This document shows positions 42,956 to 48,439 of a stretch of 64,000 nt of DNA, piece after piece; position 1 is the first letter of the stretch; the number at the start of each line of letters is the position of its first letter. Both the position numbers and the translations under genes were made by a program. The stretch comes from Rhodopseudomonas julia. Lineage in GTDB: Bacteria; Pseudomonadota; Alphaproteobacteria; Rhizobiales; Afifellaceae. The notes under the pieces were generated by a model. It searched no databases. It saw only the letters and a list, made by a program, of their open reading frames with translations, and was not told where the DNA came from. The stretch is from assembly GCF_030813515.1 (NCBI RefSeq), contig NZ_JAUSUK010000001.1:434001-498000 (forward strand), read 5' to 3'.

Positions 42956-42980
42956 CCCCGCCAGGCCGCACCGCGCGCTG

Positions 42981-43051
42981 CCACCTCCCCCTTGTGGGGA
43001 GGTCGACGCGCCGCCAGGAGCGTCGGGTGGGGGTCGCCGAGGCCCCGTCAG
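42981..43051. repeat. Dispersed palindromic intergenic repeat, long form, copy 1
   Basis: It consists of 'cctcccccttgtggggagg', a second stem 'gacgcgccgccaggagcgtc', then 'gggtgggggtcgccgaggccccgtcag'. It is almost identical to copy 43219-43289 in the same orientation. It lies after the VOC gene. Confidence 0.85.
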
Positions 43052-43075
43052 ATCTCAGACATTGTTTCTTCCAGC

Positions 43076-43118
43076 GGCCCCCCACCCCTAACCCCTCTCC
43101 ACAAGGGGGAGGGGGACG
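43076..43118. repeat. Dispersed palindromic intergenic repeat, inverted short form
   Basis: 'ccccacccctaacccctc' followed by 'cacaagggggaggggg' is the reverse complement of the short form seen at 34463. It lies between the two long copies. Confidence 0.75.
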
Positions 43119-43218
43119 TCCGTGCCACTCTCAAATCCATTCCCGCCGCCCTCGCGGTCCGGGCGCCACTCCACCCCCTTCGCCGCCCGCTTCTCCAGCA
43201 AGGCCGCGCCGCGCGCAC

Positions 43219-43289
43219 CCACCTCCCCCTTGTGGGGAGGTCGACGCGCCGCGAGGCGCGTCGGGTGGGGGTCGCCGAGGCCCCGTCAG
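43219..43289. repeat. Dispersed palindromic intergenic repeat, long form, copy 2
   Basis: It has the same three-part structure as copy 42981-43051. Here the second stem is perfect: GACGCGCC, loop GCGA, GGCGCGTC. The 15 or so bases to its left also resemble those left of copy 1. Confidence 0.85.
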
Positions 43290-43325
43290 GCCGCAGCGTC
43301 CGTTCTCATCTCACTCGCCGCCCGT

Positions 43326-43766: not shown

Positions 43767-44096
43767 GATCTGATCTCCAAAAGCTATGTTTCGGGGCGAG
43801 GTTTGCGGGCGAAAGCGGGCCACAGCACGGCGAACGTCTCCCCAAGCAGAGCCATGCATATGGAGGCCATACCGGCCTTACAACGCGCTCCCTCAAGACG
43901 AAGAGGCAGACTGACGCGACGAACACCTTTCTTATCCAACGAACGGAAGGTTAGCGCCCGCTTTAGTCGTTGGAGTGGGGGCAAGCAGTCCTCAAAAGCG
44001 GAAGTCACCATTCTGAACGCTGTGAAGAAAACTCTACCGTCGCTTGCATCGGCCCCCATGGTACGTAATATTAGCCAGCTTTGCCGCCAACGTCCT

Positions 44097-44226
44097 TCGG
44101 GCTCGTGATGAGCGCCGAGGCGATGCGAAGCGGCCAGTGGTCGACGGGGCGCACGCCCCTGCGGCCCGAGCAGGGCGCCGAGCACGTGCATCCGTCGGGT
44201 GCCGCGCAAGGTCCTGGGAAGCAACA
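44097..44226 (+). repeat. 130-bp perfect direct repeat, copy 1
   Basis: It is identical base for base to 44489-44618, 392 bases downstream. It begins 'tcgggctcgtgatgagcg' and ends 'ggtcctgggaagcaaca'. The flanks differ on both sides. It contains GC-rich self-complementary stretches such as GGGGCGCACGCCCC. Confidence 0.92.
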
Positions 44227-44488
44227 GGCGAGCCATGCCTCTGAACCGGCCATAGCCCTCCACGGACAAACGAAGTTGGAGTTTCGGATGGTCATTGAGA
44301 CTTCTTTACGGCTCAGCCTGGGCGGGGCGAGCGATTGCCGCTTGATTTGTGTCAAAAACAGGTATGCTCGCAGCAAGGTGAGACGTCGGCTTGCCGACGA
44401 CACCAATTCAACCCGACTGGTTCGATCGGTCGGCTCACCGTCGCCGCGCCGCGTTGGCGGGCGACGCTTCTCGTCATCCTTCTCATTC

Positions 44489-44618
44489 TCGGGCTCGTGA
44501 TGAGCGCCGAGGCGATGCGAAGCGGCCAGTGGTCGACGGGGCGCACGCCCCTGCGGCCCGAGCAGGGCGCCGAGCACGTGCATCCGTCGGGTGCCGCGCA
44601 AGGTCCTGGGAAGCAACA
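44489..44618 (+). repeat. 130-bp perfect direct repeat, copy 2
   Basis: This is the second identical copy. It ends 59 bases before the likely ATG of the reverse transcriptase, and the RT frame is open back into it (GTG at 44591). The zero mismatches argue against a diversity-generating template/variable pair and for recent duplication or selection. Confidence 0.92.
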
Positions 44619-44677
44619 CGCGCCTTCAGAGGCTGGACGAGGCTTACCGATGCGTCCGCCAGAAAGAACGGGGCACG

Positions 44678-46420
44678 ATGGGAAAGATCTTCGACGAATG
44701 TAAAAAGCGGGAGACTCTGCATAGAGCGTGGGACCGTATTCGGGCCAACGGGACTCGGTCCAAGGCTGATGAGACCAAACGTGCAATTGAGGATTTTGCA
44801 CGAACTGCCGAGCGTGACATTCAACGCATTCAAAACCGGCTGCGTGAAGACACGTTTGTTTTCGAGCCGCAGAAGGGCGTCTTGAAGAAGAAGGCCAGCG
44901 GCGGCAAGCGCGGCCTCGTGATGGCGTCAGTCCAGAACCGCATTGTTGAACGGGCGCTACTCGATACGCTCTCGAAGCACTCTTCAGTCGCACAAAGAGC
45001 CAACGGCCAGCCGACCAGCTTTGGAGGCGTGCCGCACCGTTCGGTCCCGCACGCTCTTCAGTTCCTTGATCGAGCATTTAGGGACGGTCACCTCTTCTTC
45101 GTGAGGTCGGACATTTCAGGCTTCTTCGACGCAGTGCCGCGGAAGGTGGTGATCGAAAAGATTGGCGAAGACATTGACGATCAACGGTTCCTGAAGCTCC
45201 TAGATCAGGCAAGCACTGTTACTCTCGGCAACGAAGAAGCACTCGGGGATGACAGATCTGTCTTCCCCACTGATGAAGAAGGGGTCGCACAGGGTTCGCC
45301 CCTGTCGCCGCTTTTCGGCAACATCCTGCTTCACGAATTCGATCAGCGTTTCAATGAGCGCGGGATCGTGTGTGCACGCTTTATCGACGACTTCGTCATT
45401 CTAGGTCCCACCGAAGCGAAGGTCCGCAAAGCGTTCGAGAACGCGAAAGCCGACCTCGCCAAGCTTGGCCTCCACTGCCATGATCCCTTCGCGCAGAACG
45501 CTGACAATCGGAAGACCCAGCGCGGACGAGTCGGGAATGGGTTCAACTTTCTCGGCTACTTCTGCAGTCCAGGCCTGTTTCAACCCTCAGAGAGCGCCCG
45601 CAAGGGTCTGCTGGGGACGATCGATCAGCATCTCACGAACGGTCGCAAGGCTATCATGAAGGCGCGGCGAGACGAAAATAGCTGGGCTGATATGCAGCGC
45701 TACGCGCAAACGCAGACCCTCATAGATCGAGTGCTGCGGGGATGGGGCGACGCGTTTGCGTATTCAACATTGCCTACAATTATGGACAGGCTCGATGTTG
45801 AGATCGATCAACGTCTCGACAACTTCAAGAGTTGGTTCACAAGGCAGATGCGCGATGCGGACCGCAAGGCGAAGCGCCGGATGGGAGGAGTCGGCCTTCT
45901 AGGCGACGTAGAGCGCAAGACGCTGGATGAAGTGCCGTTTCGCCTAGAGCATGGGACGCGCTTCCGAACATCGAAGAACACGATCACAATCTCGACGGAT
46001 GGAGCACTTTGCTCCGGGGCTCGTCAGAGCAAGCGTGAGCGGCGGCCCGGCGGATGGGCGTTTGTCGTCCATGGATCGAATGAGGAACGAGGCGGGTACG
46101 ATGTGGCAACCTTCAACAACCGGATGGAGCTCATGGCGGTCATCGAAGCGCTGAAGCATACACCTTCAGGCGCATCAGTCTGCATTCGCACGGACAGCCA
46201 ATACGTATGCAGCATCTGTAACGAGGGCGGTGCTATTCAGAAGAACTCCGACCTTTGGAGGTCGTACGAAGCGCAGGCATCCCAACGCCGAGTGCGTATT
46301 GTTTGGGTTAAGGGGCATGCGGGGGATGAGTACAATGAACGAGCGGATCGGCTCGCGAGTAAATACGCAGAAGACGCTCGATTGATCGAGCAGGCGAGCC
46401 GCACGCCGTGGGTTGCGTAA
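44678..46420 (+). CDS. Reverse transcriptase - RNase H fusion protein
   Basis: The 580-residue protein (ATG 44678) starts with an N-terminal helical region and RT block 1 (ASGGKRGLVMASVQNRIVERALLDTL, about 68-95). The RT palm has Asp145 (RSDISGFFD), block 4 (VAQGSPLSPLFGNILLHEFD) and the catalytic pair Asp237-Asp238 in ARFIDDFVI, with FIDD rather than the usual YADD. A thumb/X-like helical region (GFNFLGYF, about 290-430) follows. The C-terminal RNase HI domain (about 435-565) has the full catalytic set Asp441, Glu484, Asp506, His547, Asp557. It should copy RNA to DNA and degrade the RNA strand. GC is lower than neighbours. No intron or retron RNA was recognised. Confidence 0.88.
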   Translation: MGKIFDECKKRETLHRAWDRIRANGTRSKADETKRAIEDFARTAERDIQRIQNRLREDTFVFEPQKGVLKKKASGGKRGLVMASVQNRIVERALLDTLSKHSSVAQRANGQPTSFGGVPHRSVPHALQFLDRAFRDGHLFFVRSDISGFFDAVPRKVVIEKIGEDIDDQRFLKLLDQASTVTLGNEEALGDDRSVFPTDEEGVAQGSPLSPLFGNILLHEFDQRFNERGIVCARFIDDFVILGPTEAKVRKAFENAKADLAKLGLHCHDPFAQNADNRKTQRGRVGNGFNFLGYFCSPGLFQPSESARKGLLGTIDQHLTNGRKAIMKARRDENSWADMQRYAQTQTLIDRVLRGWGDAFAYSTLPTIMDRLDVEIDQRLDNFKSWFTRQMRDADRKAKRRMGGVGLLGDVERKTLDEVPFRLEHGTRFRTSKNTITISTDGALCSGARQSKRERRPGGWAFVVHGSNEERGGYDVATFNNRMELMAVIEALKHTPSGASVCIRTDSQYVCSICNEGGAIQKNSDLWRSYEAQASQRRVRIVWVKGHAGDEYNERADRLASKYAEDARLIEQASRTPWVA

Positions 46421-46668
46421 TGTGGCACGGACAAACCACCGGATGTTGCGTATAGGTTGTGCGTGAAACGTCCACTTCTCACGCGGATCTCTCGAAACCT
46501 GCTGGTTCGCTTACGGCCCGACCTAGTCTAGTCGAGGCCATGAACCACGCGGTGGGGTGGAAGCGGGACTGGCGGCTTTCCGGATGGAACCTTTAAGAAA
46601 CGACCGCTGAAGATCGCGACCTTCGCGTCAAAGCGCATCCGTCTATTCAGTGCTTATACCGTCCAAGC
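46421..46668. other. Gap between convergent RT and DUF3825 genes
   Basis: These 248 bases hold no gene. I searched for a group II intron domain V-like hairpin after the RT and did not find one. Confidence 0.4.
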
Positions 46669-47544
46669 TCAAGCATCTTGGGCACCGGACTTGAAGCCCC
46701 CAAGCCACTCGCTGTTTGGCCGCGCAAGAAGTCGCGCGTGGCTGTAGGCCCAATCCATATAAAGGATGGTGGCCGCCCTGTACCACCCTCCATGACGCTC
46801 AAGCGTCAGTGCAAGGTCTGGCTCATTCGGGTCCCTCAGATAGATTGGCAACAGCAGCTGAATTTTACTCCTGTAAAACTGGGGAACAGCGATCCGGTAG
46901 CTTCTCTGCGCAAGTCGTATGCTTTGTTTTACTGCTCCCTCAAGCGCATTTCGTGTGGCAACCGGAATCTGCTGATCGTTGGCTGCTTGGGCTTCAGCTT
47001 CTGCATCGTCCTCAGATTCTTCTTCAATTGGTCTACCGTCTTTTCCGACCTGCCCACCGAGCTCTTCAGGAAATCTCTTGAGGTTGTCACGAATGATGTG
47101 GTCCAGATTGAGTTGAACCTGTAGCTTCGGGTCAAAAATAAGGTCTCTTGAATCGTTCCAGTACTCTACGAGGGCCGGAAGTTCCATGAATTCGGTTAGA
47201 ACGCGGTCACCTGATCTTGCCCAAGACTTCAGCCACCACTTCTTGTTTTCTGCGCTAACGGGTCGAGACCTATCATACGTTTCAGATATTGTAAAAACCC
47301 CAAATATTTCCTCCTGTCCAGGAGTGAGTAGCCCGGTGTTAAAGCATGCCACTTGATCGGCGAGAACGATCTTCTGCTGATCATACGCTCTGATGAAAGT
47401 GTTTGTCACATATCGATCAAGAACAGGGTAATCGTTCTTAGAGGGAAGATGACGATTATTCCAGCGTTCCGGCTCAGCAACCCCCGCGAGCGTTGCAAGG
47501 CGATCATCCCAATCGGCTACTCGAGCAAAGTCGAAAATTCTCAT
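46669..47544 (-). CDS. DUF3825 domain-containing protein
   Basis: This is a 291-residue cytoplasmic protein. Its sequence follows the DUF3825 pattern: N-terminal LAGVAEPERWN, YVTNTFIRAYDQQKIVLADQVACFNTGLLTPGQEEIF (about 45-80), FDPKLQVQLNLDHIIRDN (about 140), IPQFYRSKIQLLLP, and the end ATILYMDWAYSHARLLARPNSEWL. The acidic insert at about 170-190 (EEESEDDAEAEAQ) is low complexity. Function unknown; family members are accessory genes. DNA is GC-poor. It is convergent with the RT gene. Confidence 0.78.
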   Translation of the reverse strand: MRIFDFARVADWDDRLATLAGVAEPERWNNRHLPSKNDYPVLDRYVTNTFIRAYDQQKIVLADQVACFNTGLLTPGQEEIFGVFTISETYDRSRPVSAENKKWWLKSWARSGDRVLTEFMELPALVEYWNDSRDLIFDPKLQVQLNLDHIIRDNLKRFPEELGGQVGKDGRPIEEESEDDAEAEAQAANDQQIPVATRNALEGAVKQSIRLAQRSYRIAVPQFYRSKIQLLLPIYLRDPNEPDLALTLERHGGWYRAATILYMDWAYSHARLLARPNSEWLGGFKSGAQDA

Positions 47545-47839
47545 TTGCTATTCTCCAAAACTAGGTGACGCTTCTAATTAACCGAAAAGCGCGAAACCAG
47601 TGCATGTTTTCTTACGACACAGAACACAAGAGTGAGAATGGCGTCTTCGGGGATAGTCATAATTGATGCTCAAATGTCCCGCTTGAGTTGTGAGCTGAAG
47701 CGCAGCTTTACGCCAATCCCGCCCCAAAGCCGACAGTCTCTCTTCGGCCCATTGCAGTCATTCCTCCCCAAAGAAAAGAGACCCTGAGCATCTAATCCCC
47801 TACCGCATCCTCAACCCATCTCAGGCAGAGCGCGTCCTG

Positions 47840-48439
47840 CTACATCCCGCCAGAATCCCCCTGCCCCTTCGTCAGCCCATCCAAAAACAGATCCGCAAGC
47901 CGGGTCACATCGTCCTCGAACCCCGGCCCGGTGCGCACCAGGCACATGCCGATGAGGGTCAGAAGGAGATCCTCGGGCGTCACGTCTTCGCGCATGCGCC
48001 CGGCCTCTTTGGCGCGCGCCAGCAGGCGCGCGATCGCGCCGGTGAGGCTCGTATAGGAATAGGTGTAGATTTCCGAGGATTTGTCGACGGCGAGCGCCAG
48101 CGCCGTCAGCATGCCCTGCTTCGTGGCGATCAGCCGGATATTGGCGTGCACCCATTGGCGCAGCGCGGCGACCGGGTCCGCCTCGCCTTCGAGCCGTTCG
48201 GCGAGCGCCACCATCTCGTTGATCTCGCGGCGATAGACGGCCTCAAACAGCGCCTCGCGCGTCGGGAAATGCCGGTAGAGCGTGCCGATGCCCACCCCCG
48301 CCGCCTTCGCCACGCCTTCCAAAGTCGCCTGCCCGCCGTGGGTGCGAAACACCTCGGCCGCGGCGGTGAGAAGCCGCTCGCGGTTGCGCAGATAATCGGC
48401 GCGCGGCCTGCGCCTTGGCTGTTCGGTTTTCCGTTCCAT
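47840..48439 (-). CDS. TetR/AcrR family transcriptional regulator
   Basis: The 199-residue protein has a TetR_N HTH at 16-65 (LLTAAAEVFRTHGGQATLEGVAKAAGVGIGTLYRHFPTREALFEA) and a C-terminal helical ligand domain like those of the TetR_C_37-type AcrR regulators. It is divergent from the paoA-like gene (184-base gap) and probably represses the dehydrogenase operon. The 295 bases between this gene's end and the DUF3825 start hold nothing I can assign. Confidence 0.9.
   Translation of the reverse strand: MERKTEQPRRRPRADYLRNRERLLTAAAEVFRTHGGQATLEGVAKAAGVGIGTLYRHFPTREALFEAVYRREINEMVALAERLEGEADPVAALRQWVHANIRLIATKQGMLTALALAVDKSSEIYTYSYTSLTGAIARLLARAKEAGRMREDVTPEDLLLTLIGMCLVRTGPGFEDDVTRLADLFLDGLTKGQGDSGGM

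Follow-up and report, generated by a model that had tools for sequence, protein, structure and literature searches.

A G2L4-class reverse transcriptase fused to RNase HI in Rhodopseudomonas julia and the paired repeats upstream of it

In DGRs, a template repeat and an RNA element are accompanied by a second copy of the repeat within an ORF by the reverse transcriptase (RT), and in the DRT2 and DRT9 systems a defence RT is encoded next to an ncRNA. Cellular RNase HI carries a handle, or basic protrusion, that serves substrate binding; HIV-1 RNase H is a form of the enzyme without the handle. The closest described relatives of the RT analyzed here belong to the G2L4 class, which comprises domesticated group II intron-like RTs without intron RNA. 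For the published Pseudomonas aeruginosa G2L4 RT, action in double-strand break repair and two plug arginines in the RT3a insertion have been described (PMC12337344).

The window was the whole stretch of 64,000 nucleotides at positions 434,001 to 498,000 (forward strand) of Rhodopseudomonas julia contig NZ_JAUSUK010000001.1 (GCF_030813515.1). A first-pass annotation had claimed a 580-residue fusion of an RT to RNase HI with all catalytic residues in place, a GC content below that of the backbone, no intron ribozyme nearby, and a possibly domesticated RT. Each of these claims held. The reading frame is intact, and both Pfam domains exceed their curated cut-offs (RVT_1 at residues 70-267, E 2e-17; RNase_H at residues 436-564, E 6e-25). 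D145 and D237-D238 (FIDD) are invariant in an alignment of seven RTs, and D441, E484, D506 and H547 are invariant with 11 cellular RNases HI, D557 being nearly so. The GC content of the fusion gene is 0.57 versus ~0.65 in its surroundings. Features of the locus are collected in Table 1; we read the cassette in the order P1, R1, D, P2, small-ORF start, R2 and RT, with the fusion as its protein part.

Table 1. Features of the locus, numbered from the first nucleotide of the window.
Feature	Positions	Strand	Basis or remark
Variable insert between GFA-like gene and TetR gene	43834..47858	.	Other content in two sister species
Promoter-like site P1 (TTGCAT-16-TAATAT), -10 ending 25 nt before R1	44044..44071	+	p=0.035; putative
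Repeat copy R1, apparently silent	44097..44230	+	Repeat search; fails open-hydrophobic-frame test in 16/21 loci
RNA-like structured domain D (predicted)	44225..44320	+	Four fusion loci only
P (GCCTCTGAA), directly after R1	44237..44245	+	Complementary to P'; p=0.035 at window
Small ORF through R2, hydrophobic stretch at R2 start, putative start codon	44335..44703	+	ORF list, frame test
Promoter-like site P2 (TTGATT-15-TATGCT)	44342..44368	+	p=0.035; putative
Repeat copy R2, read through by small ORF	44489..44622	+	Repeat search, frame test
P' (TTCAGAGGC), directly after R2	44625..44633	+	Complementarity to P
Possible hairpin (GGACG/CGTCC) before RT start	44635..44657	+	Sequence and fusion-group tail alignments; no statistics
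RT-RNase H fusion gene	44678..46420	+	ATG start, 580 aa, TAA stop
G2L4-class RT half, residues 1-412	44678..45913	+	Structure-sequence match and fold
RNase HI domain, residues 436-564, without handle region	45983..46369	+	Pfam, alignments, model
DUF3825 gene downstream of fusion	46669..47544	-	E 1e-65

The RT half belongs to the G2L4 class. Its best solved sequence relatives are two G2L4 RT entries (PDB 9d4s and 9d5x, E 1.4e-75 and 6.4e-75), matched over about residues 3-412 of the fusion protein, and the next-best solved relative is a group II intron RT (E 4.8e-18). It is 36% identical to the published P. aeruginosa enzyme and has the same fold; an AlphaFold2 model of the fusion (mean pLDDT 79, RT half mostly >90, residues 406-478 and 546-560 below 50) gave a target TM-score of 0.89 against 9d4s. 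As in the G2L4 RTs, there is no D/En domain, and the Pfam search of the fusion protein returned no integrase or protease domain either. The isoleucine of motif 5 is likewise kept, whereas the tyrosine is replaced, the motif reading FIDD in all four fusions versus YIDD in G2L4. Also unlike the solved enzymes, the window protein adds a C-terminal RNase HI, and the plug arginines are not conserved: in the seven-sequence alignment the RT3a region of the fusions is present, two residues shorter than that of a P. aeruginosa plasmid homologue (L033), and is without the arginine pair. Note that the pair is also missing from the other G2L4-type sequences of this alignment except L033, and is altered in L061.

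A group II intron or retron RT was ruled out by the absence of intron RNA, by models that stay under their cut-offs and by the G2L4 best match. No Rfam family reached its gathering score within the 64-kb window, and a lax RNA-family search of 43950-44750 gave two matches, both far under gathering scores. The curated group II RT/maturase model scored 157.8 bits (cut-off 300), NCBIfam Drt3a 56.3 (cut-off 200) and retron St85 33.4 (cut-off 235). PADLOC, which gives no cut-off, placed UG17 second, behind a generic RT model. Placement in a group II intron or retron clade with RNA parts at the locus, which the first-pass annotation had named as the finding that would speak against it, was thus not found; the RNA-like part that is present is of another kind.

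The fusion was found in four genomes, namely that of the window, G577 (52% identical, 567 aa), G1221 (51%, 572 aa) and G1434 (50%, 592 aa). Because the three others also carry it as an open frame, an origin of the fusion by an assembly join was ruled out. In a FastTree tree the four fusions are monophyletic (support 0.984), and G2L4-type RTs cluster together against an outgroup of only five YADD RTs; one sequence with YVDD in place of YIDD (L055) nevertheless falls inside the G2L4 clade. Whole genomes were searched with the window protein, which was matched in its own genome (1/1) and, at a lax cut-off, in 5/5 genomes of the genus, the full-length match being solely in its own. Wider searches, in which the counts include the centre genome and overlap one another, gave 1/11 genomes of the family, 9/397 of the order, 5/385 of the class and 6/398 of the phylum, 1/4 and 2/43 genomes around G577, 2/48 of the class of G796 and 10/338 of the family of G353. 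From the order level onward these were run at E 1e-30, and some rows are YADD, hence not G2L4. A sister species (L018, G001) holds a further RT-like ORF with FEDD that is 30% identical to residues 10-246.

The plasmid RT of L033 matches 9d5x at E 2e-119 and is a relative of the published G2L4 RT, not the same protein. At 1e-30 it had a match in 1 of 72,556 plasmids and none among 50,697 phage records. A phage origin was rejected on the latter count, though three alignment scans of IMG/VR gave relatives, and seven IMG/VR contigs carry G2L4-type YIDD RTs; two single-protein scans of IMG/VR gave none. On the plasmid (L033 7741-14820), the RT stands beside a recombinase, a TIR protein, an inovirus Gp2-like gene and an integrase.

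The RNase H domain, for which a separate fold had been proposed as a check, was modelled alone with a pLDDT of 89 and matches E. coli RNase HI. In all four fused domains, ~14 residues are missing after the third catalytic residue and ahead of the DLW motif, which is the position of the handle in cellular RNase HI. By analogy with HIV-1 RNase H, this loss suggests that the RT half holds the substrate for the handle-less domain. The four fused domains group together in a tree, but their attachment to cellular RNases HI is unsupported (0.434), with a long-branch row adjoining and C-termini cut off. A separate RNase HI gene in the same genome is 48% identical to the fused half.

Two direct repeats, each 134 nt long and 99% identical to one another, lie upstream of the fusion gene. 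A third copy was not found when the whole genome was searched at E 0.001, with 40 of the 58 first-look candidates scored. A search for homologues sharing this upstream repeat, which the first-pass annotation had recommended, found two direct copies in 21 of the 27 G2L4-type loci that had at least some 990 nt of upstream DNA. These 21 include all four fusions and L033, so that paired repeats are shared with a close relative of the published enzyme. The copies are 100-153 nt long, have 0-4 differences each and lie 328-397 nt apart, with R2 ending 36-74 nt ahead of the RT match. Left off the 27 were loci with too little upstream DNA (L046, L047, L065, L066 and L088), L059 (YLDD, at a contig end), L070 (a fragment with unrelated tandem repeats), L056, L057, L060, L068 and L069 (YADD, not G2L4), L089-L097 (on contigs shared with loci in L061-L067) and L098-L100 (weak matches). 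Repeats are absent from the five YADD relatives, just two of which (L068 and L069) had 1,500 nt upstream.

Chance or an assembly artefact was rejected as the source of the repeats because they occur in single-contig genomes (L050, L054 and L082) and because the pattern used as the control criterion was found at all 21 two-copy loci and nowhere in 550,715 control bases. Since R has diverged between loci (about 76% identity between the window and L044) and hardly within them (15 R1/R2 differences over 2,738 positions in 21 loci), the copies are under concerted evolution; the boundaries of R were set as the best-matching segment, and the low number of R1/R2 differences is therefore partly by construction. 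RecA gene conversion, without the RT, could be the homogenizer. When loci were compared in pairs, identity across R and the spacer exceeded that across the first 1,200 nt of the RT gene in all nine pairs; L033 and L061, for example, are 100% identical in R, 96.6% in the spacer and 80.8% in the RT. Taken together, these repeats suggest an enzyme class that works with a dedicated nucleic-acid partner.

Three loci (L053, L083 and L087) have one copy only, directly before an open RT and with no D, as expected for R1-R2 recombination. Another three (L051, L052 and L084) have no R, and the RT ORFs of L051 and L052 are without their N-terminus. As one-copy and no-copy loci nest among two-copy loci in the FastTree tree, two copies look ancestral. 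The single-R loci could also be read as the outcome of a deletion switch, in which the RT would anneal R1 and R2 strands, remove D, P2 and the small-ORF start, and land behind P1. Their nested position and the placement of R before the RT tail would fit such a switch. We consider it very unlikely, given that it is seen in just 3 of 27 loci, that RecA deletion would suffice and that it leaves P/P' and D unaccounted for.

The two copies differ in coding potential. A frame is open across at least three quarters of R2 in 21/21 loci, and an open hydrophobic frame was found at the R2 start in 20/21 loci, at R1 in 5/21 and in 2.5% of shuffled sequence, the most hydrophobic open frame being chosen alike in test and control. 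Of the two copies, R2 therefore appears to be expressed and R1 to be silent, with ambiguous start codons at several loci, the window included. In eight related loci (A6 group), the R frame has a dN/dS of 0.44 versus 1.1 and 1.3 for the other plus-strand frames, which contain many stops; frame 1 of the minus strand has a dN/dS of 0.52, but many stops as well. A purely non-coding R is thus unsupported in the A6 group. Neither of two small ORFs matched a Pfam or PHROG family. In L080 (4949-7036), and ahead of the RT in L064, no stop separates the small R2 ORF from the RT and both share one frame, giving a longer open frame. By eye, the spacers of many G2L4-type loci, such as L082, L085 and L033, also show a short leader ORF that uses another frame and has a ...KN... 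core (CKNVP or PKNRL), which overlies an AAAAAC motif directly ahead of the small hydrophobic ORF.

The locus occupies a variable site. Two of three fetched sister loci align on both sides of the insert and have other genes there, one of them encoding a TIR protein; in the third, alignment is confined to the TetR side. At this site (L105 6332-8707, L106 6830-9780), one sister carries the TIR gene and a weakly PDDEXK-like gene, and the other three family-less ORFs. The stretch at 42957-43296 belongs to a GC-rich intergenic repeat family with inverted copies, and related copies are found at several sister-species sites. The DUF3825 neighbour that had been reported downstream was confirmed, and this gene also matches phage family phrog_11623. 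As a constant partner it was rejected, having no match among ten neighbouring ORFs tested around the other three fusions. By Pfam, one of these is an M81 metallopeptidase, another a lactate permease, and the remaining eight belong to no family; note that the eight may not be genes and that contig L080 ends just past the RT.

These surroundings bear on a role in defence, which had also been proposed. An anti-phage unit would use the hydrophobic R2 protein as a toxin that is restrained by the RT/R1 product and freed on infection, as in a retron. The variable site, the TIR gene in one sister species, the small hydrophobic ORF across R2, the nearby TIR gene and integrase of the P. aeruginosa plasmid homologue and the IMG/VR contigs are consistent with this reading and amount to circumstantial support. 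The Pfam search of the ten ORFs around the other fusions found no defence family, and the NCBIfam DRT and retron models score far under their cut-offs, and we regard an anti-phage unit as decidedly unlikely.

Between R1 and R2, the four fusion loci share domain D. Paired alignment cells made up 93.8% of D versus 83.7% (sd 2.0) after shuffling (0/500 as high), eight pairs show compensatory change (no shuffle of 500 as high), and the covariation score was 0.507 versus 0.303 shuffled (0/500). Of the five measures, only the number of pair types was ordinary (93/500 shuffles). Slid out of register, the alignment gave 26-49% paired. D is predicted from these data to be a conserved, covarying RNA-like structure of the fusion clade, resting on four sequences whose own consensus supplied the structure; its closing helix (helix 1) uses the 3' end of R1. 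An RNA model of D retrieved the four training loci and no other G2L4 locus, and a single RNA model for all subfamilies failed. The A6 subfamily alignment gave no covariation support (covariation term +0.88, unfavourable), and 12 divergent spacers aligned jointly yielded next to no structure.

Complementarity between P and P' extends further across the class. It reaches p<=0.05 singly in 18/21 loci and is not significant in 3/21, and the helix lies within 11 nt of the repeat ends in 15/21 loci and 14-47 nt away in 6/21. In a permutation that used 16 chosen loci of the 21, the own-locus score was 25.9, while 20,000 permutations averaged 16.3 and peaked at 22.0 (p=5e-5). G-U wobble, corresponding to sense RNA, was the better fit in 14 of these 16 loci and A-C in 1. 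P has possible local pairing partners as well. Promoter-like sites reach p<=0.05 in 8/21 loci for the P1 type and 11/21 for the P2 type, with scores that are weak one by one.

The main rival explanation holds that the fusion works in DNA repair, as the published P. aeruginosa G2L4 RT does, and would join broken ends by microhomology. Its RNase H would strip RNA from hybrids at breaks, and the repeats and RNA-like part would be a regulatory leader kept alike by RecA. The shared fold and 36% identity argue for this reading, as does the role in double-strand break repair described for the published enzyme (PMC12337344). It does not account for the retention of two copies across most of the class, for the closer similarity of R and spacer than of the RT in every pair compared, or for the complementarity of P and P'. 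The plug arginines of G2L4, moreover, are not conserved in the fusions. We treat repair as a serious possibility, though a doubtful one.

The best explanation, held tentatively and at somewhat less than an even chance, is that R1 RNA serves as the template of the RT, that the cDNA acts on R2 and that RNase H clears the RNA. The first-pass annotation had proposed that the enzyme makes cDNA and strips away its own RNA template, which would fit the complete RNase H active site and the repeat cassette. R1-D would give rise to a transcript that the RT binds and uses as its own template or guide RNA. The RT would then copy R1 into cDNA, while the handle-less RNase H would remove the R1 RNA from the duplex held by the RT. 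The product, being complementary to R2, would be brought there by pairing of P with P'. From this point two endings may be envisaged. In one, for which we have a slight preference and which is by itself rather unlikely, the cDNA would be copied into R2 DNA as homing without mutagenesis, and R1 and R2 would therefore stay alike. In the other, which is unlikely, the cDNA would act as antisense DNA on R2 mRNA, which RNase H would cut. Against copying, we count that without mutagenesis it brings no obvious benefit. Against the template reading as a whole, we count that the RT frame stays open in three G2L4 loci that have a single repeat and lack D, and that the published G2L4 activity acts on DNA (PMC12337344).

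With R1 as a putative template, the layout resembles by analogy that of a DGR, in that a silent repeat is followed by an RNA-like element and a second copy lies in an ORF near the RT. Unlike in DGRs, differences between R1 and R2 are not adenine-specific (4/15 fall at A in R1), and motif 4 of the window RT is QGSPLSP; a DGR with adenine mutagenesis was rejected on the former count. DRT2 and DRT9 likewise have an RT beside a possible template RNA; their RTs are of another class, with weaker fold matches, whereas the window has long paired repeats. Retroviral RTs share the joining of RT and a handle-less RNase H in one chain. They differ from the window protein, which has a group II-type RT and is without integrase or protease domain, and from its locus, where both repeats are upstream and do not flank the coding region.

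If the template reading is extended to the class, G2L4-type loci would form an unrecognized class of bacterial retroelement, consisting of a silent R1 with a guide or template RNA domain, an expressed and nearly identical R2, and an RT that would either transfer the R1 sequence onto R2 or employ R1 cDNA as antisense DNA against R2. The RT of one clade would have acquired its own RNase H, combining copying and RNA removal in one chain, and G2L4 repair would represent one side of a system whose nucleic-acid partner had escaped notice. We offer this as a tentative proposal whose probability falls well short of even. In the available parts of PMC12337344, PMC13015716, PMC4244168, PMC8934634 and PMC5603734, no mention was found of the upstream repeats or of a G2L4-RNase H fusion; novelty of both holds within the literature searched, and the 2022 G2L4 paper lies outside that scope.

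The G2L4 RT serves as a model of a retroelement enzyme turning into a repair enzyme. Should loci of the class indeed have their own dedicated repeats and RNA, the physiological substrate could be tested directly, and the repair role might call for reinterpretation. An RT that has its own RNase H and lies outside LTR-type elements would mean that the retroviral pairing of RT and RNase H has also arisen separately, and the fusion would be a possible tool enzyme.
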